Shown here piece by piece: positions 9,088-63,452 of a stretch of DNA of 64,000 nucleotides. Numbering within the stretch: position 1 is the first letter of the stretch; each line of letters opens with the position of its first letter. A program made the translations under genes and the position numbers. Source of the stretch: Phorcus lineatus (lineage: Eukaryota; Mollusca; Gastropoda; Trochida; Trochidae); contig OV121091.1 in the NCBI GenBank assembly GCA_921293015.1, forward strand, positions 11,189,755-11,253,754, written 5' to 3'. The notes below the pieces were generated by a model. That model was not told where the DNA came from. It saw nothing but the letters and a program-made list of their open reading frames with translations, and made no database searches.

Positions 9088-9887
9088 ACACTGTGCCCCT
9101 TTAAGTCATCTCAACTTTGGTTGATTTCAACCGATCAGAATTCTACTTTTCTAGCAAGGAGATAACTCTACTTGTAAACAGTGGTACTAAAGGAGAATTG
9201 ACATAGCCTGGGTGCTTTATTATCTAAATATCTATGTTTGAGAAGAATTTCTCATTGGTCTCTCTATAAGTTTATAACACCTAACTAATTCATTACAATT
9301 ATGCAACACTAATTCCTAGAAAAACATAGTGTATGCAAAATAAACAAGCTGCAATCAATATTAAACCGTGTTGTATGCTACCTACTTATTACTGCCCTCC
9401 AGAACTTAGGCTTAGGTTATGTTTCTGAAAAATGACTTGGATAAGATCTTGAGAGTGAATGCAGCCTTCGGGTTAGTCAATCATTTACTGTAAGACTGAC
9501 ATTACTAGCTAGTTTGTTAGTCGTCTTAAATTAGATATCTGAAATAAGACATGAAACGGGTTATTTAAACAATGACAGAAACCGTTATTTCTAACTACTA
9601 ATTTGAACTCATCGAAAAGGCTTCACAGAGAACGGGCACCTATTGTTTGTGCTCTCTTTTAACTGCCAGCTATAAGCCCTACCTTGGACAAATCCCTAAA
9701 TATTTCTAAATTTATACCTGAAAACAGTCTTTTAAAAAGTGACAAACTGATATTCTACCAGTAATTTCAAGTTGTGCAAGTCGCCCAAAGAGCCGAGAAC
9801 TGACACCTGTTCTGTGTGCTATCTCTCCTATCATCTAGCTGTACCTATAGCTCAGATCTACATGGGACAATTTCAGTGAAGGTTGAC

Positions 9888-16546: not shown

Positions 16547-18311
<1,765 letters not shown>

Positions 18312-21583: not shown

Positions 21584-22678
21584 TTAAGGAAAACCTCCTT
21601 GCTCCATCTCAACTACGCCTTGTTGTTCTTGGGCTTCTGCAGAAGGTTTACAATCACATCTGACGATCTTCCGCATCTGCAATCATTCAACCACGTGAAC
21701 GCAAGTTCCAGACACAGTCAATACAAATCATAACATTTTCGTTGGCTACAGTACGTGTGACAATACCATGAATGCTCATCTGACTTGCAAATTTCCTACT
21801 ATCTCAAACCTGGTATGTTTCATCAAGAAAGAAAGTATTTAAATTATTTGGCTTTGAATAAGACGAAGGGATAAAAGGGGTTTGGTAATTCGACTGGCTT
21901 GCTGAAATCAAAGGCCAAAGTTGAGTATAATTTACTGATGAAATATCATAGAGTCCTCCCTTACCAGTTGCTTTCTCATTAAATCCGATAGCAACCTAAC
22001 TTTTGATTTAGACATCGTTTTTTAATACTTCCTTTCTTGAGTATAACAGTTATTGAGCTTTGAAGTACTAAGAAGCAAATGAGATCGTTTTAAATTGTGA
22101 ATGTCCGCCTTAGGGATCATCACTTTGTGACTATGCACCTGTCCCGCAAAGAATAACTTGTGCATGTTTCCCTCAATGTCTAATTTAAGTCACACCGCAT
22201 TGCCCAAATCATTTTTGTCTCAATGCAGAGCGCCATATTTGTTAATAAGTAGCAATCTCAGGAATACTTAGTTTTCATTACTATCAAGCTCAGCCTTATA
22301 ATGCTAAAGTGCCGGCACAGAACGTCTAAGACTTAAACCATTGACGTGATTGAGACTGGTTCAAATTAAGCCTTGCGAAGAAAGTAGGTGACTTTGTTGC
22401 GTTTGCAATGTTATAAATGGCAACAGTTCCTGAAAAACTTTCCAATAAAATTTCCAGAAATTATAGAGGAGATATTCATACCTTTTCAGTAGTGGAAGCA
22501 AGGACGCCATCACAGTAAATATTCACATCTGTGTCTTCAAACACAGGGGTGCAGCACTGGTCTGGGTCGACCCCACATCCACCCCCACATTGACCCCAGT
22601 CCATGTTCATTGTCCGGCACGTGTCATTCAAAGTTTGCATACCCCAGTTAGCCTTCTTTGTGCAGTTGACTGGGTCAG
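21584..22678 (-). CDS. C-terminal cystine knot (CTCK) exons and stop
   Basis: The exons are 22482-22678 and 21584-21676 (phase 0 junction). The first starts [13 protein letters not shown] and carries [14 protein letters not shown] and IYCDG. The second continues [11 protein letters not shown] and ends in an acidic tail at TAA. The spacing C-x-G-x-CG...CC-P...C-DG...C-x-C matches the CTCK domain at the C terminus of VWF, mucins and SCO-spondin, where it makes tail-to-tail disulfide dimers. The position at the very end of the protein also fits. Confidence 0.85.
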
Positions 22679-25600
22679 CTGGATGAAGAATACATCTTTA
22701 GTGCCATGTATCATCTTCATCATGAACATTTTCTATACTCCTCTTTACGGAATTGGAAACAAGACAATCATTCATCTTTACCATCGTCATAATTAGTATA
22801 TTATCAATATATCAATCAATAACCATGGCTTACAACTTTGCCACTTATAATACCAATATTATTCATCCGTCATAGTATCATGGTATCGGTTTCTTAAAGA
22901 AAACTATATATCACAGTAGCCGGTTGAACCATTTCCAAGCGTGTAAATTATATAAGGGTAATCTATCCTTAGGTAAAGGCCCTTTGGGATTTTCCTCTCC
23001 ATAAGTGTTTACATTTATTCCAAAACCTCGGATTCGTGTTTTATCCTAGTCAGAGAACGAGCCTAGTGTATACAAACCTTCACATGCAATATTCTCCACA
23101 AGAGTCATGGGTAGTTTCTTGATGCAAGCCGCCCTTTCCAGTTCACAGAGGTTCTTGTAGGTCTTGACGAAGTTCCCTACTCGTCCACAGACTGGGTCGT
23201 CTCCCCTGTTGTTGCAATCGGGACAGGTACATGTGGTAGTGGAGTTCATTTCAACACACAGCTCGGGGGCTGGGCATGTCACCTTTGCACACTCACCTAA
23301 AGGTAAAAACATTAAGGAAATTGTAAATTATGGAAGGGGATGTGTGCCAAAAATGAAATCATGTAAACTCGTAATTCGCAAGTTGTAACATGTTGTTCTC
23401 AACCATGCACTTCTCGAAAAGACAAGTCCAAGTCTGCAAACCTAACATTTCATTCCTGTAAAACTCAACTTTCTGTTCTCAACTTTACAAAGTTCAAATG
23501 TAATTCTAGAAATGTTAAGTCGAAATTCATTTTTGTATTTCAAATACGAGGGATATACACATTTAGCAATGCTACAAATTACGTTTTACAACTGGTGAAT
23601 GAAAAATGAAGAGTTGTAAAATCACCCTTTGGAAACAGACTTTTGCATCTGGAGTTTTACATGAGTTGCATGGTTATGATTGCAATGTTCCGAAATACAT
23701 CTGTACACGATTTCGCATTGACCATATTTGGAAGTTTAACGAAGTCTGCCGATGATTTCCGAAGATGATCGGTATTTGACAACAACGAGACCTCCCTGAT
23801 CCAAGCTCCATGCAACGCTGTGCAAGCTTTCCGGATAGTGTTGAGTTGAGTCCACCTCAATGCGCGGAGCTTGGGCATGCCGTCACCTATGGTAAAAGTT
23901 CTCAGTAACTCGCGTACGGTGTTTTTGGACCCCTAAGGCAAATATCAACAATTGTAACTTTTCTGTCCATGTCACCGTTTGATAAGCTAACTTATATAAT
24001 GTTAAATGACCTATTTTCCCAATCTCTTGCCGCCACTCTATACAAAATGTATAAGCGTAAACTTCTCCAATAATGTTTTATACCCCGTCATACCTATTTT
24101 ACTGATGTAATATATTTGTATATAATAATGTGTTTGTGTGAGTGCACACGTGTGTGCGCTCTTGTTTTACAGATGTTTTAGTAATACTATTTATTTAAAA
24201 GGATTATTTTATGTTATATCGTGTTTCGTAAGCCTATGTAGGCTGGACTTTGCTTTTTAATTTGATGTGATAATTGTATAATATATGTCTAAATGCAAAG
24301 TGTGACACTTCAATAAACTAATTTTCTTCTTTTCTCTCTGTAATAGAACAAATATCATTTGCAATTAATTCTTATCTGACCATTATCCCAAAACAATTTC
24401 GTGAATACGTCATTCTCTAAAATATACCCGTGTTGATTGTAAGAAAATTTCCGAACTCTTTTCGAGCCCCTCAGATGTTGTGACGTAGTCAACGCATATT
24501 AACTTTTCGAGGGCCGATTTCAATAGTTCAAAATACTTAATCAATTTCGTAGCATAACAAATTTTTACAAAACTGAAAAGTATTATTTTTTCAAAGTACA
24601 TGTTCATTGTTTAGTAATTGGTATAACAATGGAATATGAGCGTTTCCGACGCATTTGGAAAAGCATGATTACTTTGTAGACAATCTTTCAACACTATACT
24701 TTTGTGTCGTCTTGGCAATCAATTTTAAATGATTATTATTTTATGACATCACCTAATTATGATTTATCACTAGGAGAATAATGGTTTACATTAATTAACT
24801 GATGTGAAGTTTGATTTTATGCATGTACTCCTCAAGCCGCACTTGCGTAATAATACCTTCAGTTGATGAACACAGTTGGTAAGATATGTAATTATACACA
24901 GGCCCGTAGCACCAATTTCGAGGGGGGGGGGCAGAAATTAGGGATTTAAATTGCTATGTTTATTTAAGAAAAACTCCCGCTTACAACGTCGTAGAGACCA
25001 AATACAGGCAGTTAATGTTCACGTCACTCACAAAGTCATTAGTGCCTATTGTCAGATGGCGCATGAAACATATGATATTCTATTTTTCACACAAACATTG
25101 AAATAAAGAGCAAAAAAGTTGTTTTTTTATCCTACGGGTCTGAAACACACTGGATAAAATTCAAGATATACACTACGTGAATCGATAATTACCTATCAAT
25201 TACGATACAATAGTCGTGTTTTTGTTGCTGTGCCACTTGTTTTGATGCGAGAAATCTAAGTTGTACACCCCTAAGTTATACGTATGGAAATGTATAATCT
25301 TGAATTTCAAATAATTGTTAGAATTTTAACATATCTTGATGATAACAAAGGTATTTTGATTTAAAATGGATCTGATATCTGAATTTGCAAGAGCTTTTCG
25401 ACTTAAAAATGGGCAAAATAGCCTATGTATCGAACAATGACCTGATGTTCTCTGGCGGCCTGCCAGACCAGGCAAAAATTGATAGACCGTTCGCTTATAA
25501 GAAGACCCTATAATAACTGTTGATCGGGCGGAGAGTTAAAAATGACATATGTCACATGAAATGCCAGTCATTTGATTTTGACATGTTCTTCAATTAAATT

Positions 25601-28600
25601 TGTTCAAACTGTTAAAAAAACGTCTGGTTTAGAACGTTCATAGCTTTAAAACATGACTTTAAACGGTATTAAATAAATGTTTCTTTTAACGAATAATATT
25701 TATTGGTTAAACGACCGAATGAAAGACTAACAAAAGAAAAAAATATTCTTTTCAATGATTTTGGAACTTTCCCCTTACTTTACGTTGCGTAGTTATTTTT
25801 CTAACTATTAATTTGAAAGAATAACATGCCCGTGTTTTAAGGGTAACGTGGGTGTACAATATAGATATATTTTTTCTACCGCTATTTGTCTCTCCGCGAC
25901 AAGTATGCCGTTGTTTCATTATTCTAAATCCAGTCTCGTAATTTGGTGAGTTTTTTTAAACCCAACCTAAATATCTAAAACGATATTTTTTTATAGTGAA
26001 TCATCTCGATGCAGAAAGTTGTGCAGAGATTTAGTGTCCAGTAAAGTCTAACCCAGAATTAAAGTTCATAATATTCTTTCGTGAGATAAACCTCGTGTAA
26101 CCCTTACGAAAACAGTAGAAACAAATTATCTAGATCAATAATTGACTAAGAACTTTGACAAAAGGTGAAGGTCGCATGCCCAAGCTCCGCGCATTGTGGC
26201 GGACTCAGCTCAACACTATCCGGAAAGCTTACAAAGCGTTGCATGGAGCTTGGATCAGGGAGGTCTCGTTGTTGTCAAATACCGATCATCTTCGGAAATC
26301 ATCGGCAGACTTCGTTAAACTTCCAAATATGGTCAATGCGAAATCGTGTACAGATGTATTTCGGAACATTGCAATCATAACCATGCAACTCATGTAAAAC
26401 TCCAGATGCAAAAGTCTGTTTCCAAAGGGTGATTTTACAACTCTTCATTTTTCATTCACCAGTTGTAAAACGTAATTTGTAGCATTGCTAAATGTGTATA
26501 TCCCTCGTATTTGAAATACAAAAATGAATTTCGACTTAACATTTCTAGAATTACATTTGAACTTTGTAAAGTTGAGAACAGAAAGTTGAGTTTTACAGGA
26601 ATGAAATGTTAGGTTTGCAGACTTGGACTTGTCTTTTCGAGAAGTGCATGGTTGAGAACAACATGTTACAACTTGCGAATTACGAGTTTACATGATTTCA
26701 TTTTTGGCACACATCCCCTTCCATAGTAAATAGGTTTCATTTCAGAAATGTTTTTGCAAGCTCCTCTACTTCAGGCCTAAATGTGTATTGATATTAAAAC
26801 TATATAGCAGTGTATTTTTGCTCTCAGAGAGCATGGCCTGTCTTACATGGCATCGGCCTGTTATCACATTCATCAGTCGCGGAAGCATATGACGTTTTCG
26901 TTTGAGAGACAATGACTTTTCGAGACACATGCTTCTTTCGTTCTGACATTAAAATAATGAAGCATTGAAGACGCTGGTTGTTGGAGAAGTGATGTAAATC
27001 TCGATGTATTTATGCATTATATATAAACATTGTAGCACTGAATGCAAGGCGTAGGATAATTCATAGGGAAGACGTGTCTGTATACAATGTATTGTTTTTT
27101 AGTGAACACTGAAATACTGATGAAGAAGGAAACTTTCTAAAAATGTAACATGAAAATTAATAGTTTGTGGACAATAACGTCTTGGCGTATCGAGAGGAGA
27201 GAATGGCGTAGCATAATGCATCACAGTAAACATGTAATGTTAATAAATAATACCAGGGCATACATCCTTATCACCGTAAACAACAGATGTATATAGATAA
27301 TATCAACTTGATGTCAGGGCATACATCCTTGTAGCATAATGCATCACCGTGGACAACAGATGTTTATAGATAATACCAACTTGATGTCAGGGCATACAAC
27401 CTTGTAGCATAATGCATTACCGTGAACAACAGATGTTTATAGATAATACCAACTTGATGTCAGAGCATACAACCTTGTAGCATAATGCATTACCGTAAAC
27501 AACAAAGGTTTATAGATAATACCAACTCACTGTCAGGGCATACAACCTTGTAGCATAATGCATTACCGTAAACAACAGATGTTTATAGATAATACAAACT
27601 TGATGTCAGGGCATACAACCTTGTAGCATAATGCATCACCGTGGACAACAGATGTTTATAGATAATACCAACTTGATGTCAGGGCATACATCCTTGTAGC
27701 ATAATACATTACCGTCAACAACAGATGTTTATAGATAATACCAACTTGATGTCAGGGCATACAACCTTGTAGCATAATGCATTACCGTGAACAACAGATG
27801 TTTATAGATAATACCAACTTGATGTCAGGGCATACAACCTTGTAGCATAATGCATCACCGTGGACAACAGATGTTTATAGATAATACCAACTTGATGTCA
27901 GGGCATACAACCTTGTAGCATAATGCATTACCGTAAACAACAGATGTTTATAGATAATACAAACTTGATGTCAGGGCATACATCCTTGTAGCATAATGCA
28001 TCACCGTGGACAACAGATGTTTATAGATAATACCAACTTGATGTCAGGGCATACATCCTTGTAGTATAATACATTACCGTAAACAACAGATGTTTATAGA
28101 TAATACAAACTTGATGTCAGGGCATACAACCTTGTAGCATAATGCATCACCGTGGACAACAGATGTTTATAGATAATACCAACTTGATGTCAGGGCATAC
28201 ATCCTTGTAGCATAATACATTACCGTAAACAACAGATGTTTATAGATAATACCAACTTGATGTCAGGGCATACAACCTTGTAGCATAATGCATCACCGTG
28301 GACAACAGATGTTTATAGATAATACCAACTTGATGTCAGGGCATACAACCTTGTAGCATAATGCATCACCGTGGACAACAGATGTTTATAGATAATACCA
28401 ACTCACTGTCAGAGCATACATCCTTGTAGCATAATACATTATCGTAAACAACAGATGTTTATAGATAATACCAACTTGATGTCAGGGCATACAACCTTGT
28501 AGCATAATGCATTACCGTAAACAACAGATGTTTATAGATAAAACCAACTTGATGTCAGGGCATACAACCTTGTAGCATAATGCATCACCGTGGACAACAG

Positions 28601-31600
28601 ATGTTTATAGATAATACAAACTTGATGTCAGGGCATACAACCTTGTAGCATAATGCATCACCGTGGACAACAGATGTTTATAGATAATACCAACTTGATG
28701 TCAGGGCATACATCCTTGTAGCATAATGCATCACTCACTATCAGGGCATACCTTCTCATAGCATAATGCATCATCGTAAACAACAAAGGTTTATAGTTAA
28801 TACCAACTCACTGTCAGGGCATACATCCTTGTAGCATAGTGCAATGGCCGTCTCCTTCAAGGGGTTCCCGTTGGAGTCTTTAGCATCAATGACTGGTCTC
28901 CGGGTTCTGGATACGAACCCAGTACCACAGGTGACACTGCATTCGCTCCATGGAGTCCACTTAGTTACAATGTACCCTGAAATCAAGGGTTCATATTACA
29001 TAAGGTGAGCAATGAAATATTTTAATACTTAATTCCCGTTCAAACCCTGCATGGTTGCAGTCTTTTTACTGGCACAACAATCAGATGTATCATTGCATGA
29101 TAGAAATTCAAACCAGCATGACTCAATTTTTTTATATCTTCTCTCCACTGGTAGAGCATTAATCATCGGAAGAAAGTAACCACTAAGTGTGTTGGTAAAA
29201 ATATCCACTCCCCTTATCTATATAGTGACAGATGCCATAATTTCAGAATTCTCAAAAAACACAATCTCCGTTCGCAGCTTATGCGCCACCAGTTTATTAT
29301 ATACTCTTACAAAGTATCATTAAATCCAGTATTTTATAACCATATTTATCAAATCAAGCACTTATTATATTTACTACAGGACTAATACGGGGATAATGAT
29401 AAACAATTTTATGATTTTAAGAAAAACGCAATATTCATCTAAAACATCAAAACGCACCTAGTCAATATTTAGTTTTTAATATCATATAAAGAAAAATTTC
29501 TTCACTCCCCTCCGGAAAAGAAATAATAACGAGCTGATGGACATCCTGATGACTGCCCCTTCGCTTCAAATTAAATTGAGGGAGATCAAGACACTACAGA
29601 CGGACTTGGAATACCTGTATTTATTACCGTAGAAAAATCGTATGTTTTTGCCATTGTCGGCGTGTCATACTTACCCGTTACCGAATCATCACAAGCTTTC
29701 CCGGTACTTTCAATTGTTATTTCAGTGTTTGCTACCCCGCACGTATATTTCGCAAAGTCACACATGCTCTTGAACTTGATGTTCACAGACGAGCAGACAC
29801 TTTCTGTAAGACAATGAGCGATAAATTAATAACATATTCTTGTTAAAAGCAAATGGTAGATAATGTTCTGAAACTTACAGCAAATGACTTGATGGAAATG
29901 CCATTGATGTGATAAAAAGAAAGCTTCATATAAGGCTTTTTTATATTAAAGTTAAATTTGTATAAAAGCTGGAGCTTGAGAGCTTCAAAAGTTTTGAAAC
30001 ATGATTTCATAAATTTGATTTTCGAACCAGAATACTGTACAGAACAGGTCAGAACTGTAAGAATTGTTTGATACGTTCAAATTACTTTCTCTAAAATGTA
30101 ATTAGTTACCTGAAACAGTTTCTGATTCCGATTCAACGCACTCTGGACATGAGCACACTGCCTTTCCGGATTCCGCATCCACCGAGCACTCCTCGTTAGG
30201 ATTCTCGCATTCAACTCCGTCACATGTATCTGAAAGATAGGGACATATACATTGTGTCAGGTTAAACAACTTGCAATTGCGGAATAAGGATTTTTAAAAG
30301 AAAGGGGCACCTATTGAAAAGGGGCATTGTGGATTTTTAAGAGAGAGATGGGGGGGGGGGGGTTGATCCCGGGTCCATTACAGTAACTTAGAATTAGGAA
30401 AAGAACACAATCGAGGGCTAACGAATATGTTATTTATTTATTATCCCATTTTAAAGAACTCTGTACTCAATGTGTAAGTATTTCAGGGCTTTTTTGTTTA
30501 TAAGAAAAGGGAAATACACCGTTTTGAATGGAAACTGTGTTCCAATTTCAGGGACACTGGGTCATGTCAACTAATTTATCCGATTTTCCAATATGTCAAA
30601 TAAAACCAGAAAACTTTATGTTATGTAGCACCCTTACTGATGTAATGTAATACTAATACTTGCCTGTGCTTGGTTTGAACCACTGACTCTATCATAACCT
30701 ACCTCGTTTACACCTTCCATCATATGACTTCACCACGTCCTCGTTGTTCTTGCACGCTTTTATAATGAGTTCCTTCTCTGTGCTGTATGTATTCCCATCA
30801 CTGCCACACACCTGCACATATGATAAATAGTACACGGCTTAAATTTTTCTGATATAATGCATAAGTGCCAATAATTTAACCCTTATAGGTAAACACTGTC
30901 ACTTTGTAGTGTATCCCTTCAACAAATTTTGTCACGGAGAGCATAACATTTCGCACTATCGTTCTTACTTTTGTGATGTTACCATTAAATCGATAGCAGG
31001 AATTTTTTGTCGGGAAGAACAGTGGTCAAGTCTTGGGATTCATTTCACACAAAATATAATTGGGTAAAATTTTCATAATTTACAAGAAGCATTTCATTAC
31101 ATTAACTGAGTACTGGAACCTTTTGACTTACTAACCTTTCCAGGATTGTCACAACCATCGCCAAAGCAAGAACAGCATTTCTGGTCGTTTCCATATGTAG
31201 CCAAACCACTATCTAAAACACGTTTCGTTTTTACTTTAAATAGTAAAATGTTTAAATGTTCATTTGTATAATGCTTCGTCCATAACATGATATTACGCTT
31301 CAAGTACGTTGACTTATTATTCTTGTCTGAACCCAACTGCCGTTTTTTTCCCTCATCCATATAACCTTCGAGTTGAAGCCAACTCAATATGATGCTACAA
31401 CATCTGCAATCTATACAGTTGAAACTAGCCGCAATTATAAACGGTCAGTCCTCGTTACATAAAGTATTAAAGCACAAACTTCACAATTAATGTTACTCAG
31501 AAAGGTAATTGTAAAATCTCTCATCTTATGAAGCCATGGAATGGATCACCCATTCAGCTATTAATCGTGCCCGTTATTGCTTAACTATACATAGTTAAGT

Positions 31601-52347: not shown

Positions 52348-52378
<31 letters not shown>

Positions 52379-55300: not shown

Positions 55301-55764
55301 CGCACTTCTTCTTGTGTGGAAAAACGCATATGGCACAACTAATAATTGAACTCTTACTTGGTACATCAAGTTTTGTCACAGGGAAATTGCAGTCAACTTC
55401 AAAGGCTTCAACCGGACCACTTCCGTCAGGGTCGACGGTAAAGGCGCCATCTTGAGGAACGGCATCCTTCCTATCCTTGGCCTTCTGTAGTACTGCAGCA
55501 CATGTCTCGGACACCTCTGTTGGAGATGAAGAACACTGTTGAGGAATGGAAGCGGAGTGATGATGACGATGATGATGATGATGATGATGATGATGGTGAT
55601 GATGGTGATGTTTATGATCAATGATAATCAAGATGAAGACGACGATGATGATGACTGTGGATATGATGCTACTGCTGCTGATGAAGATGTTTTGATGATA
55701 ACAATGACCATAATTATCATGATGCTGCTGCTGCTGATGATTCCGCTGTTGCTGCTGATGATGG

Positions 55765-55808
<44 letters not shown>

Positions 55809-58800
55809 GTAATGATGATGATGATGATGATGAAGATTGGGATAAATGATAGTAATGACAGTGGTTTACCCTAAAAACGTTTATGTCGATGAATTGGAGT
55901 GGTATTGAATAATAATGATTATGTCGGTTCAAAGAAATACAAAATATTTTAAATAAACTTATATCAGATGTTCCTGGTCCCAGATCACATAATCTTGATA
56001 TATGGTAAATGAAAATCCTGTAGTTTTAACACATCTTACAAAACACATAAATTTACCAAAAGATATCTTAATTACCCAAGACAACTTTTGATTAATCTAT
56101 CTATGATGCTTGCATTACCTTCTCATATATATTAATGTAATTATTTAACTTGTATACAGAATATATTTATTATAATGCTAAACGTAGCATTTTCATAGAA
56201 ATGAGACGTTTTCATCAAATATTTTAACGCAACCTTCAAAATCGCAACAAATGGAAGTTATTGATACATGTGGTTAATGTGTTGAAATGCTACAACTGTT
56301 TTCAGACAAAAATGATTATGGTTATGATCATTGTGCTTGCAGTGGTCTTAATGATAATGATAATGTTTCTATCGGATTTTGAGGTAAACTGTAAATCGTA
56401 AATAACAAAAAAAAACGGTAACACACATGCTTGATGTACCTTTTCATGGAATATTACAAATAATTTACATATACATTGACAAATGAAGACTGCTGCATTT
56501 CATTAAGAGTATGAAATATATCCAATAGATTAATAATTGATTTAAAAAGGCACAAGACATGTGTCATGTATTACATGATGTTGGTAATAAACAGATTATC
56601 TGACTCAAGTGTCTTACCAAAGCATTTAAACGGACCAAGCTCCATATCAACATAACCGTTGCCATCAATATCTGCATTCTTGAAGTTGACACCTCCAAAT
56701 GGCAGTACTTCCTTGTTTGTCAAGAAACCCTGGTCGACCCTGTAAAACATGTGTTCGTTAAGTAGTATGTATTCTGAACCTTTGAGCTACAATAACACAA
56801 AGAGCCAATGTTCATCTTGCTAGCGGTTTTACAATAACTTGAAAGGTAAAATTTGTGTTAGAATATAATCATGTTTTATACGTTAACATCTTACATTGAA
56901 CTAAATAATGGGTGATAAAGATCACATTTCATAGTATTTAAAATATGTTGTTCTTCTAACATGTCATATTAAGTTAGCTTTGCCTAAAAATATCATTTCT
57001 TTGTCAAGCTTGTGAATTAAAAGAATTTGAAGTTAACGATGATTTAAGGGGTCTTCTGGCAACACTTTGCTGTCAAATTTTACAAGGCAATAGGCACAAA
57101 GGGCTTGTCTTGGACAACAGCCAAAACGGTTGCTGTGTTACAGAGTCCTGTATGGATACAATTTAATCTAACTGGCCGGAACTCTTCATACATTGTTTCC
57201 GTCGATGTCTCCGATCTGTCACACTGACATTCGTCGGATCCATCGGCTCCCATACAGTTGACGTAGCTTCCGTTCCCAGACCAGTAGTAGTTTGGGAACG
57301 TCTGACCATAGCCGTACCAGAAGGCGTTGTTACCTGGGTGGTTATAAATTAGTGTATATTTCCTAACTTTCATAGCCGGCACTAAATGATTTAATATCTC
57401 ACAGTCACAGTGAATATCTGTGGACATGAATCTATCCATAGTCAATAGTTATTTTTCATCTCTATCGAAAAGCATAGCAAGATATGTCAACATAGAATGC
57501 GGAAAGTTACAAAGTAAGGTTGTGGCTTTATATAACTGTTTGAGTCCCAAGTTTTATTTTCTTGCTTTCTAGCTGGGTTGACTTTCTGTTGGTTCCAAAG
57601 GCTGATTCAGTTGTTTGACCAACCAGAGGAGGATATCAGTGCTTATAGTATGCAGTGTTGGGTAAAACTGCTTTAATAAATGACTTTTCTTTTATTTCGG
57701 ACATTATTATTACTACAGGCAGTATACTTAGCATAAACATAAAATCAAGTATTTGCAATTTGTGGTCGAACGTCATGTCATTTAAAAAAGAATCGTCAAA
57801 ATGGATGATGTGGCGTTTTCATTTGATTGCGAACTATAAATATGTACTGCATTAGAGCATTGTTAATATAAATTATCAAGCTTGTTCGTAAATCCAATTT
57901 CACCATCCCATGAATAACATATGTAAACTACGTACTGTCTCCTCCGGGTGGATGAAGAGCGAACTTGTTACAGGACAGTTTAACACTTTGTTGTACGTAT
58001 GTACATGTCTCCTTCAGAGCGTCCAGCTGCTCAGGGGATACGTACGGGTACGTCAACTTTATCCCGTTTTCCCCGTTGCCTAGTCGTATCTGCAAGGGTT
58101 AAGTATTATCATTTACCTTTAAGGAACCTTTTACCATAAAGCAAAATAGGTGGCGCAAATTAAATGATAACATCGTGTGGAAGACTTTTGAAACTTTTTT
58201 GTATTCCGGAGACAATTCTGACCTTACCCAAAGGAGGCATAGAGTAAAAACTTTAAAATTTCATATTTCACATGTCTTCATAAATTATCAATTTCACACA
58301 TTTCGGGCAACTCTTAAGACAAATGGTTAAAGATATGACATATATTGTCTTATCTGGATAAAATATTTTGAAATGAAAATATTATGAGAAATATGTTTTA
58401 AAATACTAGTATAGGGTTTATTTGCATCTTAGATTCCTAATGTTCTAGTCGGCATATAGATATTCAAGTATTTGACAGGAACATGATATCTCTTCTTCTC
58501 TTCAAAAGAATTATAATTACTGGCAGAAAAATGGTTGTGTGAGTCGAACTTAAGTGAGCCCCTTTTTACATGATATGTGCCCTAAGCTTTCCAGTAATGT
58601 TACAAACTTTGGTGATCAGCAGTTTTAATTATGCCCATCATTCGTAAAACTTGTTTTTCCCCTTATATTTTTAGAGTTGTAAATAGGTAGAAAATGTGGG
58701 CAACATTCACATTTATTTACATTTGAATATTCAACAGGAAATCTTTATGATAACAGTGTAAGAATAAATACAGAGACGAAGCATGTACTGAAATGAACAT

Positions 58801-61800
58801 GTTTTCCCTTTTATTTGTAGATTTAGGAATCTGTTAAAATGTGAACAAAATTTTGTTTGAATATTAAGGAACACATAACTTCTACATTTTAAAAGAGGAT
58901 ATTTTACTTACAATATTCCTGCTCTCGTGTTGTATGATGGTGATTCCCATGGGAGGGGATATCTGCATCACACACTGGGCGTGGAATGGAGCCACGTTGT
59001 CTGAAGAAAACATCATAGTCACTTGCTATAGACGTTTTGAATCATTGACCATTATATGATATCGTGATTATTTTATGTTTGTTTTATGTTATTATTGCTA
59101 AAAAATTAACATCATGCTAAGAATTTTATTAAATTGCCAAATTTTAGCCTCATATCGATGTGTCTCTTGTAGAAAAATTAGATCTCTCGTATACATGTTC
59201 CTATTATGCATGTTGACGACGACATATAAGAGTGTATTCGTAGTTTATTATGAAACCTACAAATAACTTCCCCGGAGAATGCTCTTGAAATCGTTGTTAT
59301 CGAAATCAGTTAACTCCATAAAAGTATTTCAACTTTGAAGCTTATACCTTTAAGGTATTTCTATGCTTATAACAATTGTTAGTGTGTTTAGAACAATGAG
59401 CCTAGAGCACTACATAAGGCAACTTATGACTATATTATTCAATAAATTGTATTTTTATTGAGAGGCCTTCTTGAAGAACGAAAACCAAATAACGAACTAC
59501 CAACTTCTTAATTCTCAATAGGCGACCTTTCGACATTGGTTGTAATGTCGTCTTCGTGAGAGTGTCCACACAAGAGGAACCTATGTGGAAACATGGCTTA
59601 CTCAGAAGAAAGAAGTTGTGAATCCTTAAAAATGGTATTCATTCTTCTATATCGAAATGATAAAACTGAATATTTACCTCCATCCCCTGTAGGCTTTCCG
59701 TCTGGGTCGATGAGGTAGGTGTAGTTGGCATTCTGACCAAGACTACGGTACTTCTCGCAGTTAGACTCAATACCTAGTATTACACAAGAACTCGTATAGT
59801 ATTTACTTACATGAAATAGATTACTATTTAACGTGTCTTTCTTTAATGAGTATATACCCCAGAGGCATGGTACATGTTAGGATATGATAATCTCTTTATA
59901 CCTAATAAATTGACTTAATTTGATGAAAAGAGACGGAAATTGAATCATGTTTTGAGTAGTAAACTTTATTTTTATAACGAAATAACAATTTACCAAATAA
60001 GAATTACTACACCTTGTTTTCATCATAAAAGCTATATCCATACCAAATGATAAAATTTCACTGTAAACCTTTGAGTTTTCTATTTTGGTTTCGTATTGTA
60101 ATCTTCAATTATGATAGAAGTGATATTCATATTGAATGCTAATATAACTTATTTTTTAATAATTTATTTATATTATATTATATTATATTATATTATATTA
60201 TATTATATTATATTATATTATATTATATTATATTATATTATATTATATTATATTATATTATATTATATTATATTATTATCGCACACTTGTTTTCTTTAAT
60301 AAGACCCACAACATATTTAGGTCTTACGTTATACATGTACAAATAAAAATATTTCCTACTTGGTAGAATGAGTTACCAAAAAAGAATTACCGAACTGAGT
60401 ACTGCTGCACCTGAGAGGCCCTAGAACGAAGGCCCCTTTCTTCTCACCGTCCAGCTCCACGTTCACAGAGACAATAGGGAGTGAATCACGGTCCACCTGC
60501 ACTCCGATATCTTTTCTCGTCACCCCGTCGTCTATGGCACAGTTGCACAGTGCTTCCGGGTTGTCACATGTCTGGGTGACGCCACAGCCACACGAGCCCG
60601 GGATCTGGCTGATACCCCCGGGAAGGTAGCTCGAAGTACGGTTATCACTACCCACACCTACAGAGACAGTTTGTTTGCCTTGCTGCAAGACAAACATTTG
60701 TGGTGATACCTTCTGCGATGCTTTTCAACAATTAAATGTTATCATTTTTTTTCTGATTGCTTGTTAATTATTAAACATTCAATTTTGTGATATCTTTGAT
60801 GTCAAATGTGGTTACAAATGACCCTTCTATAGTGGATGCCTAATCTGGTAACTTGTTCTACAAGCCCTTTTACAAGTCGACGTTAAATGTGATCATATAT
60901 ACCTTGCATCGGTTTTATTTAAGTGCGTTAATGTTCTACTTGCCCGCCTACAAAATAATGCTATAATATGTGTTTTATATTTTGCTTGCCCGCCTTCAAA
61001 ATAATACCAAATGTTTTATATGTTTTCCTTTCCCGCCTACAATAAATGCTAAACATGTTATATATCCTGCTCGTCCGTCTACAATATAATGCTCATGCTA
61101 TTTTTGTCATTTACTGTTTTACGCTTTACGGAACTGAGGTAGATTTTCGAGGACAAATACAACAGACCGGGGACCATTGATAATTATACAAATAATTAGG
61201 TTATGACAATGTTCACATCAATTAATCTCTAACCGTTCACAAAAAAAGTCCACATAAATCGAAATCATAATTATGAGCTAAAATTTTTAACAGTTTCAAA
61301 GTTTCGAATCGACATCTTCAGTTGATTATGTATTGTAAAACTGCGCATGCTATGACTCACAATGGCCAATTTTGTTTGCTATCGGTCCTGATTTTTTTTA
61401 TTGTCCATTTTCCCCGATTTTTATAGTCTAGACAGTATATTGTAAACTGTATAAATGTCTTCGAATTGATAGCCAATCAATAATACAACATATGTCCTCG
61501 ATAGCTGTAACTCAGTGTGTAATACGATAAGTATGGATATGTTGTAATATTGAACCTTTGGGTTTTTTCGCAGGCCTGCTGTTCATCAGAAAACCATTAC
61601 AGGATGTAAATGTTTGAAGAAAGGGTCATATTTCAATACCAGTGCCATATGCTATTGACGCGAAAAATTGGTAATAATTCCTGGAGTGAAATAGATGGAG
61701 TAATCTGATTAGACGCCATTTTTAAGAGACAAGGTTTGGTTTGTGTTTAATGCCGCTTTCAAGATTATTCACTTTTATCGCTAGTATTATTGCAGGTAGA

Positions 61801-63452
61801 ATGCCCGCAACACCATTGTGGCTATGCATTGCGGTGAAACCTGCTAGCTTCGGCTGGAACTAGCGAAACATGGGTGGTACTGCGCTGATATTCAGTGTCG
61901 CATTGCACCTGAACCTGACTGCGTGTGGAACAGTTCTCTACTGCAGACAAAGTTGCTGAGCACCTGGCGGGATTCGAACCACGGACCTCTTGATCCGCAG
62001 CCGAACGCGCTAACTACTGCGCTATCCCGCCCCCTATGAGACAAGGAGTAAATTACGTATGTTGTTTGAGTCATACAAGTCAAAGGTTATTTATGTTGTT
62101 AATCTATCGTGACGAATTTTGTTATATATTACAATTTAAATGCTAACAGACATAATTGTTAAATTGTAAATTTTTGTTCGAAATCTGGAAAAAGGACCGC
62201 GACTGACGCCGGCAAACGTAAATTTGTTATCTGATAACGAAAAAGTGAGTTGGTTAAATAAGATAAATAACTAGTTAAATGTAAGAGAGACGTAGATATG
62301 AAGGTGAGTTTGTATAGGAGTCAAAGTCAAAGTCTTTATTTCAGTATTGGAGGCCTCGTAGGAAAAATACTGAAGTACATATTTTGCTGTACGCAATACA
62401 ACATCATGCTTTTATAGAATCTCTTAATTGTAAAAACGAACACATAGAGTGCTTATACAGATTTTTAAAACATAAAGTCAAGACAAAGTATGAGGTTCAT
62501 TTTAAATAAAGATTTCTTTTCAAATACATTGCCAATCATTTCCTATCATCATTGGTTGATGACACAAGCTTTTCATATATTTAAATTCCACAAAACACAC
62601 TTCTATGTAAGTTATTTGAACGAAAATATGTCAAGACAAAATAAGATATTCATTTAACATACATATTCCTTTCAAATACAATGCCATTTCTTTAAAAACT
62701 AATATGTGTGTTACGTGTTGTGATAAGTCCTTCGTTTGTTTGAAATCTAAAACTATTTTTTTGACATTTGGATAAGAATAAGCAAGACGTATGCAATGAC
62801 TTCACCGTCACCAAAAAAACATGATGATTTAGCATCGACTGCAGTGACCAAATAATATTTTTGTGTCCCATTGTGTTGTATAAAAAAGGAGGATTCAAAA
62901 CGATTGTTTTGCCCTACGTCACCAAAAAAAACATGATGACTTAGCATCGACTGCAGTGACCAAATAATATTTTTGTGTCCCATTGTGTTGTATAAAAAAG
63001 GAGGATTCAAAACGATTGTTTTGCCCTACGTCACCAAAAAAACATGATGACTTAGCATCGACTGCAGTGACCAAATAATATTTTTGTGTCCCATTGTGTT
63101 GTATAAAAAAAGAGGATTCAAAACGATTGTTTTGCCCTACGTCACCAAAAAAACATGATGACTTAGCATCGACTCCAGTGACCAAATAATATGTTTGTGT
63201 CCCATTGTGTTATATAAAAAAGGAGGATTCAAAACGATTGTTTTGCCCTCTGTTCTTACATATACTTATTCTAGCTCGTTATCCATAAGCAGAAAATACT
63301 TTGTTGAGATTTATTATTGACTAACCTGGCACTCGTACTCAAAGGGCTGTTCACAGTGAACAGATCCACTGACAAGAAGATCCATCACGGGTCCAGGGAC
63401 ATTGTACTTGACCCCATTGGATCCTGTCTCCTCCACAGTGACCTCTGGTTCC
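21584..63452 (-). CDS. Very large modular secreted protein with CNTNAP-type fibrinogen-like, EGF, VWD-C8-TIL, Kazal, TSP1 and CTCK domains (3' part, 42 exons)
   Basis: I placed 42 exons from 63452 down to the TAA at 21584. Each has GT-AG borders, and the phases agree across all 41 junctions, giving 2,183 residues plus a stop. The first exon seen (63326-63452) starts in phase 1, so the 5' end lies right of the window. Domain order is: fibrinogen-C-like repeats as in contactin-associated proteins (one partial, five complete), three EGFs, VWD-C8-TIL, an EGF-like series, Kazal, follistatin-like, TSP1, follistatin-like, and a C-terminal cystine knot. Nearly every exon is cysteine-rich and no transmembrane segment is visible, so the product is probably a secreted, disulfide-linked polymer in mucus, matrix or hemolymph (inference). 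VWD-C8-TIL plus CTCK is the plan of von Willebrand factor, gel-forming mucins, hemolectin and SCO-spondin. The fibrinogen-like array is not part of those. A fusion of two neighbouring genes is possible but no internal start or signal peptide is seen. Confidence 0.85.
23078..23296 (-). CDS. Follistatin-like plus Kazal module exon
   Basis: This single exon joins the TSP1 exon in phase 1 across a 5.8-kb intron. [16 protein letters not shown] followed by CTCPDC is a follistatin N-terminal-type hairpin. [20 protein letters not shown] then AACI is a Kazal domain of the VCG-x-DG-x-TY-x-N-x-C kind. Such pairs occur in agrin, follistatin and SPARC-like proteins. Confidence 0.85.
23323..26731. mobile_element. 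Foldback-type element with about 580-bp terminal inverted repeats and 6-bp flanking repeat
   Basis: The element runs 23329-26725. The left arm (23329 to about 23908) and right arm (about 26145 to 26725) are reverse complements, identical by eye over roughly the outer 500 bases and diverging only near the inner ends. The termini read TATGGAAGGGGATGTG and CACATCCCCTTCCATA. GTAAAT flanks both sides (23323-23328 and 26726-26731), as expected for a 6-bp target duplication. Each arm holds the same 73-codon open stretch beginning MPKLRAL, which matches nothing I know. The 2.2-kb AT-rich middle has no transposase. It is a non-autonomous element inserted in the intron. Confidence 0.85.
27241..28811. 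repeat. 73-bp minisatellite, about 21 copies, derived from the TSP1 exon border
   Basis: Units recur at exactly 73 bases (for example GTCAGGG or GTCAGAG at 27313, 27386, 27459, 27532). Each contains TGTCAGGGCATACATCCTTG or a close variant, then TAGCATAATGCA, an AACAACAGATGTTTATAG block and CCAACTTGA. The first block is the same sequence as the last about 32 coding bases of the TSP1 exon at 28812. Most copies have TTGA where the exon has the donor bases (CTCAC on the plus strand). Three copies, near 27530, 28405 and 28735, keep the donor-like form. Confidence 0.95.
28812..28976 (-). CDS. Thrombospondin type 1 repeat exon
   Basis: The exon reads [20 protein letters not shown] and later CYKDVCPD, the cysteine pattern of a TSP1 repeat. 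WTPW is a C-mannosylation motif and CSVTCG an O-fucosylation motif in this family. Its 3' border is shared with the adjacent minisatellite. Such repeats bind glycosaminoglycans or other matrix proteins. Confidence 0.9.
29675..30229 (-). CDS. Follistatin-like hairpin plus Kazal-like exons
   Basis: The exons are 30110-30229 ([15 protein letters not shown]...CSCPEC, follistatin N-terminal type) and 29675-29803 ([20 protein letters not shown]...CGV...KACDD, a Kazal-like module lacking the usual CGSDG start). Both junctions are phase 1. An acidic serine/glutamate linker, ESESETVS, joins them. Confidence 0.75.
30703..31212 (-). CDS. Kazal domain split over two exons
   Basis: Exon 31136-31212 carries [18 protein letters not shown]. 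Exon 30703-30811 carries [20 protein letters not shown], ending DGRCKR. The VCGSDGNTY start is the Kazal signature. Confidence 0.82.
32178..35446 (-). CDS. EGF-like series after the TIL domain (4 exons)
   Basis: Exons 35266-35446 ([11 protein letters not shown]...CGINAEC...[15 protein letters not shown]), 34651-34752 ([14 protein letters not shown]...CLCKMGF), 33299-33430 ([12 protein letters not shown]...CDCEEGY) and 32178-32306 ([12 protein letters not shown]...CVCCAGF) follow each other in matching phases. The last two begin with the calcium-binding EGF signature. The double cysteine CVCCAGF in the last one is unusual and leaves a possible free cysteine. Confidence 0.85.
33517..33970. mobile_element. 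MITE family A, copy 3
   Basis: The left end has CATTCTCTCCCAACAGAAGT and the right end GGAGCTACCTCTGTTGCGAG followed by AGAATG. The interior is close to the 12478 copy. It lies in the intron upstream of the 33299-33430 EGF exon. Confidence 0.85.
35495..35526. repeat. Solo terminal repeat of MITE family A
   Basis: GACGGAGCTACCTCTGTTGG then GAGAGAATG matches one end of the family A elements. No partner end lies nearby in the intron. Confidence 0.65.
35711..37056 (-). CDS. C8 and TIL domain exons
   Basis: Exons 36877-37056 ([18 protein letters not shown]...LCNIV), 36264-36453 ([15 protein letters not shown]...CNIDMC...[12 protein letters not shown]) and 35711-35952 ([13 protein letters not shown]...[19 protein letters not shown] then CGC) follow the VWD exons. 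The eight-cysteine C8 pattern followed by a trypsin-inhibitor-like domain ending GCFCKEGF...DKCV is the standard tail of a VWD assembly in VWF, mucins and zonadhesin. Confidence 0.88.
36105..36260. repeat. Purine-rich GACAGA low-complexity tract
   Basis: AGACACAGACAGAGACACAG-type sequence runs up to the donor side of the C8 exon at 36264. It is a low-complexity intron start on the minus strand and gives spurious open frames. Confidence 0.75.
37336..38324. repeat. 37-bp minisatellite, about 27 copies
   Basis: The unit is AGCTTTAGATACAATGAATG then ATCGAGATAGGAAGACA, with small alternations at a few sites (CGAG or CAAG, GGAAG or AAAG, ACAAGC or ATAAGC). Most units carry an AAGCTT HindIII site. 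It fills most of the intron between the VWD exon 38426-38599 and the C8 exon at 36877-37056. It has no spacers, so it is not CRISPR-like. Confidence 0.97.
38426..40817 (-). CDS. von Willebrand factor type D domain (3 exons)
   Basis: Exons 40606-40817 ([20 protein letters not shown]...[13 protein letters not shown]), 39816-39917 ([19 protein letters not shown]) and 38426-38599 ([20 protein letters not shown]...[16 protein letters not shown]) join in phase 0. GDPHC near the start and GLCGNYNND near the end are the hallmark VWD motifs. VWD units drive disulfide-linked assembly and calcium binding in VWF and mucins. Confidence 0.93.
38600..39815. other. Intron within the VWD domain
   Basis: AT-rich sequence with no recognised repeat and no exon on either strand. 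Confidence 0.5.
40975..41010. repeat. Perfect 14-bp inverted repeat
   Basis: GGAGATAGTAAGTC and its exact reverse complement GACTTACTATCTCC flank an 8-base loop, TTACGTAG. It is probably a remnant of a small hairpin element; the preceding TTTATAGCGCATTATCCACG is also repeat-like. Confidence 0.75.
41433..42969 (-). CDS. Three EGF domains (3 exons)
   Basis: Exons 42808-42969 ([14 protein letters not shown]...CHCIDGWQG), 42180-42299 ([16 protein letters not shown]...CTCKEGY) and 41433-41561 ([20 protein letters not shown]...CKCNRGYVG) are one EGF each, with phase 1 introns on both sides as is usual for shuffled EGF modules. The last two carry calcium-binding starts. They link the fibrinogen-like array to the VWD unit. 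Confidence 0.9.
43378..47014 (-). CDS. Fibrinogen-C-like repeat 5 (4 exons)
   Basis: Exons 46895-47014 ([20 protein letters not shown]...VFCDM), 46480-46640 ([20 protein letters not shown]...IDCMQ), 44002-44150 ([20 protein letters not shown]...CTCG) and 43378-43538 ([20 protein letters not shown]...[10 protein letters not shown]...LGDLYCG) form one unit. CNCD...WRQDGG...LPV...LG-L-C is the pattern of the fibrinogen-C-like domain of contactin-associated proteins. Confidence 0.85.
44226..45713. mobile_element. Possible 1.5-kb element with 13-bp inverted ends and subterminal C-rich repeats
   Basis: CATACATGGCATA at the left is matched by TATGCCATGTATG at the right. Just inside the left end are several ACCCGATTTC-type repeats. 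Just inside the right end are four AAAACCCCCATTTC-type repeats. The middle is very AT-rich with no coding region. It lies within one intron of the large gene. I did not find a clear target duplication. Confidence 0.45.
46388..46427. repeat. 9-bp tandem repeat (GTTAACATA)n
   Basis: About four to five consecutive copies of GTTAACATA lie in an intron, 50 bases from the donor of exon 46480-46640. Confidence 0.85.
47951..49921 (-). CDS. Fibrinogen-C-like repeat 4 (3 exons)
   Basis: Exons 49761-49921 ([16 protein letters not shown]...[20 protein letters not shown]), 49088-49222 ([20 protein letters not shown] then CMQ) and 47951-48260 (YECKESPIG...[19 protein letters not shown]...[15 protein letters not shown]...PLKC). 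The motif TPEQLNEL...S-FC-Q followed by YEC matches the contactin-associated protein pattern closely. Here the two C-terminal parts are on one exon. Confidence 0.86.
50323..50638. mobile_element. MITE family C
   Basis: The left end GGGCCCCGTTTCACTTAACG and right end AGGTTTAGGGAAACGGCACC are imperfect inverted repeats of about 35 bp. It is about 316 bp long, lies in an intron and has no coding capacity. Confidence 0.65.
50779..52765 (-). CDS. Fibrinogen-C-like repeat 3 (3 exons)
   Basis: Exons 52638-52765 ([19 protein letters not shown]...PVYCDL), 51808-52036 ([20 protein letters not shown] then EC...[14 protein letters not shown]) and 50779-50946 ([20 protein letters not shown]...LPISKISFK...LGPLECFG). 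The TPEQL motif is degraded to LTPLVEQF, and the CxCG segment before CNCN is shortened. Confidence 0.83.
51453..51631. mobile_element. Short MITE-like element
   Basis: AACAGTGGAATCTGTCTAAA at the left and AGAGATTCAACTGTA at the right are inverted. Internal CTAAACCGACACTCGCTGGG and GTCGGTTTAGACAGA blocks also pair. It lies in the intron following exon 51808-52036 on the plus-strand left side. Confidence 0.5.
52331..52493. repeat. (TATG)n and (AT)n microsatellites
   Basis: A TATG tetranucleotide run with a few interruptions (52331-52399) is followed by an AT run (52471-52493), all in an intron. Confidence 0.9.
53218..53590. repeat. Degenerate AGAACATAACACATC tandem repeat
   Basis: Variants of AAAGAACATAACACATCAAA repeat every 25-30 bases through about 370 bases of intron, ending about 30 bases before exon 53622-53888. 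Confidence 0.75.
53622..55516 (-). CDS. Fibrinogen-C-like repeat 2 (4 exons)
   Basis: Exons 55358-55516 ([18 protein letters not shown]...[18 protein letters not shown]), 55018-55121 ([15 protein letters not shown]), 54588-54702 ([18 protein letters not shown]) and 53622-53888 ([20 protein letters not shown]...[15 protein letters not shown]). The acceptor at 55516 was chosen because it alone keeps the phase. The last exon is longer than in other repeats, with a serine/proline-rich insert before the final cysteine. Confidence 0.85.
54201..54574. mobile_element. MITE family B, copy 2 (inverted relative to copy 1)
   Basis: The left end AAAGCCACTCTGTGATG and right end CACGGAGTGGCTCTTT form the terminal inverted repeat. 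The sequence matches the reverse complement of 11414-11860 over many blocks, including CATGTCCAAAAGACATGAAT. It ends 13 bases before exon 54588-54702. Confidence 0.78.
54691..54990. repeat. 152-bp tandem duplication that includes the edge of an exon
   Basis: CTCAACCAGGGC occurs at 54691 (the 5' end of exon 54588-54702 and its acceptor) and again at 54843. Each copy is followed by AGTCTTATATACTCA, a TTAAGGACC block and a TAGATATTCTATTG block. The second copy is intronic and diverged. Confidence 0.75.
55555..55835. repeat. (GAT)n / (ATG)n trinucleotide tracts
   Basis: Two long GATGAT runs, at about 55555-55611 and 55736-55835, are separated by mixed GATGAC and CTGCTG triplets. They lie in an intron just upstream of exon 55358-55516 and give meaningless methionine- or serine-rich open frames. 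Confidence 0.95.
56618..59773 (-). CDS. Fibrinogen-C-like repeat 1 (5 exons)
   Basis: Exons 59678-59773 ([20 protein letters not shown] then PDG), 58912-59000 ([20 protein letters not shown]), 57936-58089 ([20 protein letters not shown] then VKLSC), 57192-57333 ([20 protein letters not shown]...CQCD) and 56618-56739 ([20 protein letters not shown]...LGPFKCFG). This repeat is the most finely split and best shows the full domain: PDG, C-M, EQL-AL, C-Q-V-C, W-G, CQCD, DQGFLT, LPF, LGP-KC. Confidence 0.87.
60171..60275. repeat. (TATTA)21 pentanucleotide microsatellite
   Basis: A pure run of 21 TATTA units lies in an intron about 115 bases from the donor of exon 60391-60682. Confidence 0.97.
60391..63452 (-). 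CDS. Fibrinogen-C-like repeat 0, C-terminal part (2 exons; continues right of the window)
   Basis: Exons 63326-63452 ([16 protein letters not shown]...[11 protein letters not shown]) and 60391-60682 ([20 protein letters not shown]...[12 protein letters not shown]...LGPLRC) join in phase 0. C-EQ-FEYEC is the C-x-Q-I-x-Y-x-C motif of the domain. The first part of this repeat should lie on exons beyond 64000. Confidence 0.85.
61790..62031 (-). mobile_element. tRNA-Arg-derived SINE
   Basis: The head, read on the minus strand from 62031, is GGCGGGATAGCGCAGTAGTT followed by an arginine-type anticodon loop CTGCGGA. It has an A box (TAGCGCAGTAGTTAGCGC) and a B box (GTGGTTCGAATCCC). The T arm and acceptor are about six bases short, so this is not a working tRNA gene. 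A body of about 170 bases follows (GTGCTCAGCAACTTTGTCTG...GGTTTCACCGCAATGCATAG). The 3' limit is approximate. It lies in an intron of the large gene. Confidence 0.75.
62807..63250. repeat. 111-bp tandem repeat, four copies
   Basis: GTCACCAAAAAAACATGATG starts units at 62807, 62918, 63030 and 63141, nearly identical apart from A-run length. The array ends about 75 bases before exon 63326-63452. The period is a multiple of three, so open frames run through it on the minus strand without being genes. Confidence 0.95.

Follow-up and report, generated by a model that had tools for sequence, protein, structure and literature searches.

Among described proteins, the closest counterparts of the gene reported here come from the foot mucus of limpets. 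P-vulgata_2, from the pedal mucus of Patella vulgata, has 2500 amino acids (aa) between a start and a stop, a signal peptide and 7.8% cysteine (PMC7333891, table 2). It is listed with vWFD, eleven EGF, two Kazal-type (KSPI) and one TSP1 domain, has the IgGFc-binding protein (FCGBP) among its BLASTp relatives, and occurs in each of the three limpet pedal mucus types (PMC7333891). P-vulgata_1, the mRNA of which occurs in the pedal sole glands, combines two vWFD domains with a C-type lectin, six EGF, a cystine knot and three KSPI domains (PMC7333891). More broadly, the joint presence of vWD, C8 and TIL is common in aquatic adhesive proteins (PMC8621496). Here we describe a locus of the trochid gastropod Phorcus lineatus, found in a stretch of 64,000 nucleotides of contig OV121091.1 (the window, C17:11189755-11253754; contig position equals the window-based number plus 11189754). 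The genome searched comprises 957.8 Mb in 74 contigs, and ~59 kb upstream of the window was also examined. We have moderate confidence that the locus is one minus-strand gene for a secreted adhesive or mucus-matrix protein of 2659 aa, probably the orthologue of P-vulgata_2. Its scaffold of VWD, EGF, Kazal and TSP1 modules appears to be of a type already known among mollusc mucus proteins, and its sevenfold array of fibrinogen-like domains of the contactin-associated protein (CNTNAP) type appears to be new.

The gene was modeled with an exon-chain program that combines splice-site weights with codon preferences. Within the window, the program returned a 42-exon chain at 21584-63452 of the minus strand, coding for 2177 aa. 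This recovers the chain proposed in the initial annotation, including both of its ends, with the stop codon ending at 21584 and the first exon of that annotation starting at 63452. The gene continues 12 kb beyond the upstream edge of the window. This added stretch holds the first exon of the second repeat (F2), another repeat in full, five EGF exons and a start exon. The complete model runs from ATG to TAA over 53 exons, of which 42 lie within the window, with GT-AG ends in all 52 introns and a predicted protein with 8.0% cysteine. The start exon (C17:11265819-11265879, or 76065-76125 in window-based numbers) begins with MCRRDSILAGLLLCVALFHT and, by eye and by hydropathy score, resembles a signal peptide. 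The predicted domain order is a signal peptide, five EGF, seven fibrinogen-like domains, three EGF, VWD-C8-TIL, four EGF-like modules, Kazal, TSP1, Kazal and a cystine-knot-like tail.

Since the exon finder demands open frames, matching phases and GT/GC-AG ends, agreement in these features is no evidence on its own. The chain scored 1104 with 42 exons. The opposite strand reached 211 with 38 exons and five Markov shuffles reached 15 to 35, while in the neighboring segment 1-20000 the scores were 271 for the plus strand, where real genes are present, and 78 for the minus strand. This chance control is circular in part, since its codon table was derived from these very exons. Pfam domain matches do not depend on the codon model and therefore provide independent support. 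Moreover, a pseudogene was rejected, given that domain alignments cross many exon joins, which speaks against decay. Several proposed exons were discarded while the model was assembled. The terminal exon 18098-18151 was rejected and 21584-21676 taken in its place, and the micro-exon 40993-41009 was dropped in favor of an acceptor that keeps phase 1. Micro-exons 67572-67586, 72226-72239 and 71821-71893 were removed, their neighbors being in phase without them. All weak exons proposed above 76125 were dropped, and 76065-76100 was replaced by the version with an ATG start, 76065-76125.

The fibrinogen-like array comprises 1376 aa in seven repeats (F1 to F7), leaving 1283 aa for the rest of the protein. 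The repeats of the window are mutually homologous, with each of the six being recognized by a leave-one-out profile of the others at E values of 1.6e-17 to 5.5e-30, whereas the best of 2000 shuffles was 0.0041 or worse in every case; with all seven repeats, the values range from 1.1e-20 to 2.5e-38. Phase-1 introns bound all seven. The initial annotation had counted one partial and five complete repeats: the array itself is borne out, and the partial repeat turns out to be complete (F2) and to be preceded by another, giving seven in total. All repeats are on the minus strand. The first exon of F2 (64552-64714, window-based) begins 552 bases past the window edge and is followed by a middle exon (63326-63452) and a C-terminal exon (60391-60682) with the pattern CGCG..CNC..D.G..LPI..GPLRC. 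F3 spans 56618-59773 (exons 59678-59773, 58912-59000, 57936-58089, 57192-57333 and 56618-56739), and F4 spans 53622-55516 (55358-55516, 55018-55121, 54588-54702 and 53622-53888). F5 covers 50779-52765 (52638-52765, 51808-52036 and 50779-50946), a model that may miss a small CxCG piece. F6 occupies 47951-49921 (49761-49921, 49088-49222 and 47951-48260), and F7 occupies 43378-47014 (46895-47014, 46480-46640, 44002-44150 and 43378-43538).

The type of the repeats was assessed within the genome itself. The CNTNAP-type fibrinogen-like domain is best known from neural proteins. A genome-wide search with one query, F7 without its first part, of which the best candidates were scored, gave matches outside the gene at C5:37162303 (1.3e-7) and C17:22238604 (1.5e-4), and a poor one on C9 (6.35). 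Nine pieces of the C17:22238604 locus were scanned with Pfam: F5/8 type C was found at 4.8e-12, laminin G in four pieces (best 1.9e-13, one just below the cut-off) and EGF in two (best 5.2e-8), and two of the nine pieces had no match. A hydrophobic segment near the end of this gene is likewise without a Pfam match above the cut-off. Its predicted content, including a single fibrinogen-like domain, is that of a neurexin-IV/CNTNAP-like gene. A profile of F1 to F7 gave E values of 9.9e-32 with this fibrinogen-like domain and 2.6e-33 with the one on C5, against 0.1 for the best of 1000 shuffles; both target domains had previously been identified through these repeats, and their boundaries were set by eye. 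As judged from these profile matches, the repeats of the array are CNTNAP/neurexin-IV-type fibrinogen-like domains, in agreement with the initial annotation. The gene shares this repeat type with CNTNAP and neurexin IV but differs in other parts: the neurexin-IV-like gene of this genome has F5/8C and laminin-G exons, a single fibrinogen-like domain and the terminal hydrophobic segment, whereas Pfam scans found neither F5/8C nor laminin G in the array or in the C-terminal and N-terminal parts of the gene described here.

The repeats are 22 to 32% identical to one another and 24 to 28% identical to the neurexin-IV-like domain. Being no closer to each other than to that domain, they suggest that the duplications are old, and the array may hold seven different binding specificities instead of a simple repeat; five of the six inner branches of the repeat tree are left open. 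The second genomic match belongs to a gene at C5:37158723-37179897, in which a TSP1 array (assigned by eye, with one TSP1 exon scanned) is followed by one CNTNAP-type fibrinogen-like domain. This gene has three alike candidate last exons (GKQTVGPVECWG, GFATVGSVLCTG and GAFTIGPVECFG), which may be alternatives.

General domain collections barely detect these repeats. Fibrinogen_C remained under the Pfam cut-off, at 0.012 and over positions 2-38 of 221, and appeared in one of the six repeats scanned apart at E values up to 10; F1 matched COLFI at 1.9e-4, also under the cut-off. In NCBIfam the fibrinogen-like GGGWT model was the sole sensible match (best 0.0051, in two of six repeats). A phmmer search of the array against PDB gave no matches, and the array profile gave five weak ones, the best being a viral turret protein at 0.077, followed by collagen C-propeptide at 0.11 and ANGPTL4 at 2.1. 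By these matches the repeats would be faintly related to the collagen C-propeptide. An AlphaFold model of the C-terminal repeat exon of the array reached a pLDDT of 38.7. The neurexin-IV-like domain of the same genome has no Pfam match up to an E value of 10 either, and annotation based on Pfam could therefore miss such an array.

The part that follows the array, also on the minus strand, begins with three EGF exons that are phase 1-1 modules (42808-42969, 42180-42299 and 41433-41561). VWD spans 38426-40817, with exons 40606-40817 (containing GDPH), 39816-39899 and 38426-38599 (containing CGLCG). The VWD-C8 linker and C8 span 36264-37056 (exons 36877-37056 and 36264-36453), and TIL with its extension occupies exons 35711-35952 and 35266-35446, the second of which ends in an EGF-like module. 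Next come EGF exons at 34651-34752, 33299-33430 and 32178-32306, the Kazal module or modules at 29675-31212 (exons 31136-31212, 30703-30811, 30110-30229 and 29675-29803), the TSP1 exon at 28812-28976 and a C-terminal Kazal exon at 23078-23296. The C-terminus (22482-22678 and 21584-21676, stop codon 21584-21586) is cystine-knot-like by its cysteine pattern only, with CxGxC followed by CxC.

Domain model searches recovered VWD, C8, Kazal and TSP1 in this protein, left TIL just short and did not recover Fibrinogen_C or CTCK. A Pfam scan of the whole 1047-aa C-terminal part gave EGF_CA at 1.6e-23, VWD at 2.1e-20 in one stretch, and TIL at 8.1e-5, just below the cut-off. With short pieces, C8 (4.1e-7), Kazal_2 (9.6e-5, and 7.3e-6 for the C-terminal exon) and TSP_1 (5.2e-11 for the TSP1 exon) all exceeded the cut-off. 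Twelve EGF-like exons were counted by eye, all but one of them bounded by phase-1 introns, the exception being 35266-35446, which also carries the end of TIL. The number depends on the Pfam model: EGF_3 gave 11 (six C-terminal at E values up to 1 and five N-terminal at up to 10), EGF_CA gave 6 (4 + 2) and EGF gave 8 (3 + 5). Hydropathy in 19-residue windows peaked at 1.64 inside a repeat, 1.61 in the signal-peptide-like start and 1.58 in the C8 region, and on this measure a membrane anchor in the protein seems unlikely.

The VWD-C8-TIL assembly extends over six exons and into the first part of a seventh. It matched the solved structure of FCGBP over nearly its full length at an E value of 1e-112, the best match to a solved structure, and VWF at ~1e-43 with the last part excluded. 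Because these alignments run across them, most of the exon joins in the assembly are supported. The GDPH motif is shared with FCGBP, and the first residue of the solved FCGBP chain 8r0t_C aligns with the P of this motif. FCGBP differs in having repeated assemblies (six strong stretches and a weak seventh in a chain of 2587 aa), against one here accompanied by other modules. Gel-forming mucins, VWF and SCO-spondin likewise have several VWD assemblies, whereas a single VWD stretch was found here. Elsewhere in the genome, VWD-coding matches are clustered at C41:14241047-14299910, with 8 of the 29 matches located there; four of the eight contain internal stops, maybe from introns read through, and the cluster is possibly a tandem family of VWD proteins.

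The VWF match could point to a haemolymph clotting or immune recognition protein, that is, a VWF- or hemolectin-like polymer with fibrinogen-related recognition domains and Kazal modules that limit proteases. Fibrinogen-related proteins are indeed implicated in innate immunity across phyla (PMC12549020). The repeats are, however, of the CNTNAP/neurexin-IV type, and the mucus-type gene lacks the full Fibrinogen_C domain above the cut-off that would place it among the fibrinogen-related (FReD) proteins. With a single VWD assembly in addition, we consider this alternative improbable. The initial annotation had named coagulation as one possible role, and beyond the VWD match itself nothing was found that points there.

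That annotation also read the array and the modules downstream as one gene, and the chain is most likely a single gene by its predicted structure. Both exons that it had named as flanking the transition, 43378-43538 and 41433-41561, were recovered, and they are separated by two additional EGF exons. The alternative, which we regard as very unlikely, is that two adjoining genes were wrongly fused, one for EGF modules and the fibrinogen-like array and the other for the EGF-VWD-Kazal-TSP1 part. At the junction, which is a border between modules, the phase is 1 on either side, and any join there would be in frame; the matching phase is thus weak evidence, since it is expected among phase-1 modules. 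The gap between the exons at 43378 and 42808-42969 contains one ATTAAA, at 43145, but with 408 bp it is shorter than the median intron (618 bp). The ATGs at 42985 and 42952 run directly into the first EGF exon, with no hydrophobic stretch visible by eye. Four ATG frames of at least 15 aa were scored at the junction, and they do not resemble a secreted start: three have a hydropathy of only 0.24 to 0.63, and the one at 43037 reaches a moderate 1.42 but showed no phase-1 donor in the scan. The signal-peptide-like start is instead located upstream of the array, and the C-terminal part as a gene of its own would account for 7 EGF-like modules, fewer than the 11 listed for P-vulgata_2 (PMC7333891).

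For the single gene, orthology to P-vulgata_2 is probable, as judged by domain counts, length and cysteine content and not by alignment. As far as that protein is described in the limpet report, the two share a signal peptide, one vWFD, two Kazal and one TSP1 domain, a similar length (2500 versus 2659 aa) and a similar cysteine share (7.8 versus 8.0%), and a C-terminal cystine knot is neither listed there nor found by Pfam here. The equality with its 11 EGF domains should not be leaned on because the EGF count varies with the model. A CNTNAP-type fibrinogen-like array is not listed for P-vulgata_2 in table 2 of that work, and the words "fibrinogen" and "contactin" are absent from its main text (PMC7333891). 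Judging from the 1283-aa part outside the array here, the domains listed for P-vulgata_2 would fill about half of its 2500 aa and leave room for one. P-vulgata_1 likewise has vWFD, EGF and Kazal domains, three of the last, and its cystine-knot C-terminus may correspond to the cystine-knot-like tail here, but in the same report it is listed with neither TSP1 nor a fibrinogen-like array.

Several observations weigh against this interpretation. In the gene model, exons 39816-39899 and 31136-31212 and the F5 join are weak, as is the start exon, which sits 3.5 kb upstream of the next exon. In the scan of the whole C-terminal part, C8, Kazal and TSP1 were not listed up to an E value of 1 and were seen in short pieces only. 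The proposed CTCK domain had no Pfam or PDB match, and the model of the cystine-knot exon reached a pLDDT of 55.9. In the limpet report, P-vulgata_2 is predicted as "cell membrane" and is not among the proteins with a distinct in situ pattern (proteins 1, 3, 4, 7 and 11) (PMC7333891). Its InterPro list and BLASTp relatives, as given there, name no fibrinogen-like domain and no contactin-associated protein; because the model set of InterPro is larger than that of Pfam, one might have expected a genuine array to appear in that annotation. The array in P-vulgata_2 was either missed by annotation or is absent.

Other adhesives share parts of this composition. Flatworm Mlig-ap1 and sea-star Sfp1 are cysteine-rich adhesive proteins with vWD-C8-TIL and EGF modules (17 in Mlig-ap1 and one in Sfp1), but as described their lectin domains, C-type in Mlig-ap1 and galactose-binding in Sfp1, take the place of the array (PMC6410801, PMC8621496). 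Kazal is not mentioned in the main text of PMC8621496. The protein studied here has VWD-C8-TIL with EGF, a signal-peptide-like start and high cysteine, features typical of the VWD-type adhesive or mucus proteins of marine invertebrates, to which these two, P-vulgata_1 and P-vulgata_2 belong. The initial annotation had considered the domain order as a whole to be novel. This does not apply to the VWD/EGF/Kazal/TSP1 part, which is known from the two limpet proteins, and it appears to apply to the array, which is not mentioned in table 2 or the main text of that study (PMC7333891); the full order was not recognized in any description retrieved by searches of one open-access literature library.

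No Ser/Thr/Pro-rich mucin stretch was found in the protein, with at most 34 of these residues per 100 aa, which argues against a gel-forming mucin. This absence would also suit an extracellular-matrix or basement-membrane protein outside mucus glands, for example in mantle and shell matrix or in connective tissue, with the CNTNAP-type domains binding cell-surface receptors. EGF_CA, TSP1, Kazal and fibrinogen-like domains are generally matrix modules. Such a protein is nevertheless rather unlikely, given the close match in composition to the described content of a protein found in all three limpet pedal mucus types (PMC7333891) and the frequency of vWD, C8 and TIL among aquatic adhesives (PMC8621496). 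A mucus-type protein, one of the options named in the initial annotation, agrees with what is described of limpet pedal mucus (PMC7333891).

Several repeats are located in the introns of the gene. The 5.5-kb intron between the TSP1 exon and the last Kazal exon contains an inverted repeat pair (23329-23880 and 26174-26725), with arms of 552 bp that are 99% complementary and 2.3 kb apart. The longest open reading frame between the arms has 65 aa, and the pair is probably a young non-autonomous fold-back element. Satellite arrays are present at 27270-28843 (20 copies of a 73-bp unit) and 37336-38324 (27 copies of a 37-bp unit), close to exons 28812-28976 and 38426-38599, respectively; an overlapping repeat row at 28628-28843 extends 32 bases into the TSP1 exon.

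On the plus strand of the window, two adjoining genes at 9804-12111 and 16451-18308 matched the glutathione peroxidase family GSHPx at 2e-5 and 3.8e-4, both below the cut-off. Each has an in-frame TGA (10095 and 16757) where selenocysteine is expected (NVANY*GKTPQYFGLN and NVATY*GHTPQYYGLN), and these are probably two selenoprotein glutathione peroxidase genes as read from their sequence. None of the SECIS families was found at the Rfam threshold for these genes, and Rfam and tRNA scans gave no matches. An autophagy-receptor type C2H2 zinc finger is coded at 4561-4782 of the same strand (Zn-C2H2_12, 1.7e-5), accompanied by coiled-coil-like exons at 841-1062 and 2048-2359; we presume the gene to be TAX1BP1/CALCOCO-like.

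With regard to the adhesive or mucus-matrix protein, its modules suggest how it may act. It would be packed in gland cells of the foot or epidermis, and the VWD assembly, which carries CGLCG, and the cysteine-rich tail could link molecules through disulfides. Self-cleavage at GD|PH would be possible, as in FCGBP, if the site is active. The calcium-binding EGF rods may serve as stiffened spacers, the Kazal modules might shield the gel from proteases, and the seven fibrinogen-like domains would form a putative multivalent arm, with glycans or other proteins of the mucus as its ligands. Surface or glycan binding by limpet mucus proteins has likewise been argued from domain content (PMC7333891).

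These features can be accommodated in a scenario that we hold to be evenly poised. Exon shuffling would have brought a CNTNAP/neurexin-IV module of neural adhesion into a secreted VWD/EGF/Kazal glue protein, where it would have been amplified to seven copies. This would give gastropod-type foot mucus a putative multivalent binding arm that published annotation does not mention, perhaps as Pfam barely sees the domain. If P-vulgata_2 carries the array, about half of that protein is unannotated, and the array would be a concrete, testable putative binding region. In that case a domain of neural type would have been reused elsewhere, as it may also have been behind the TSP1 array on another contig of this genome.
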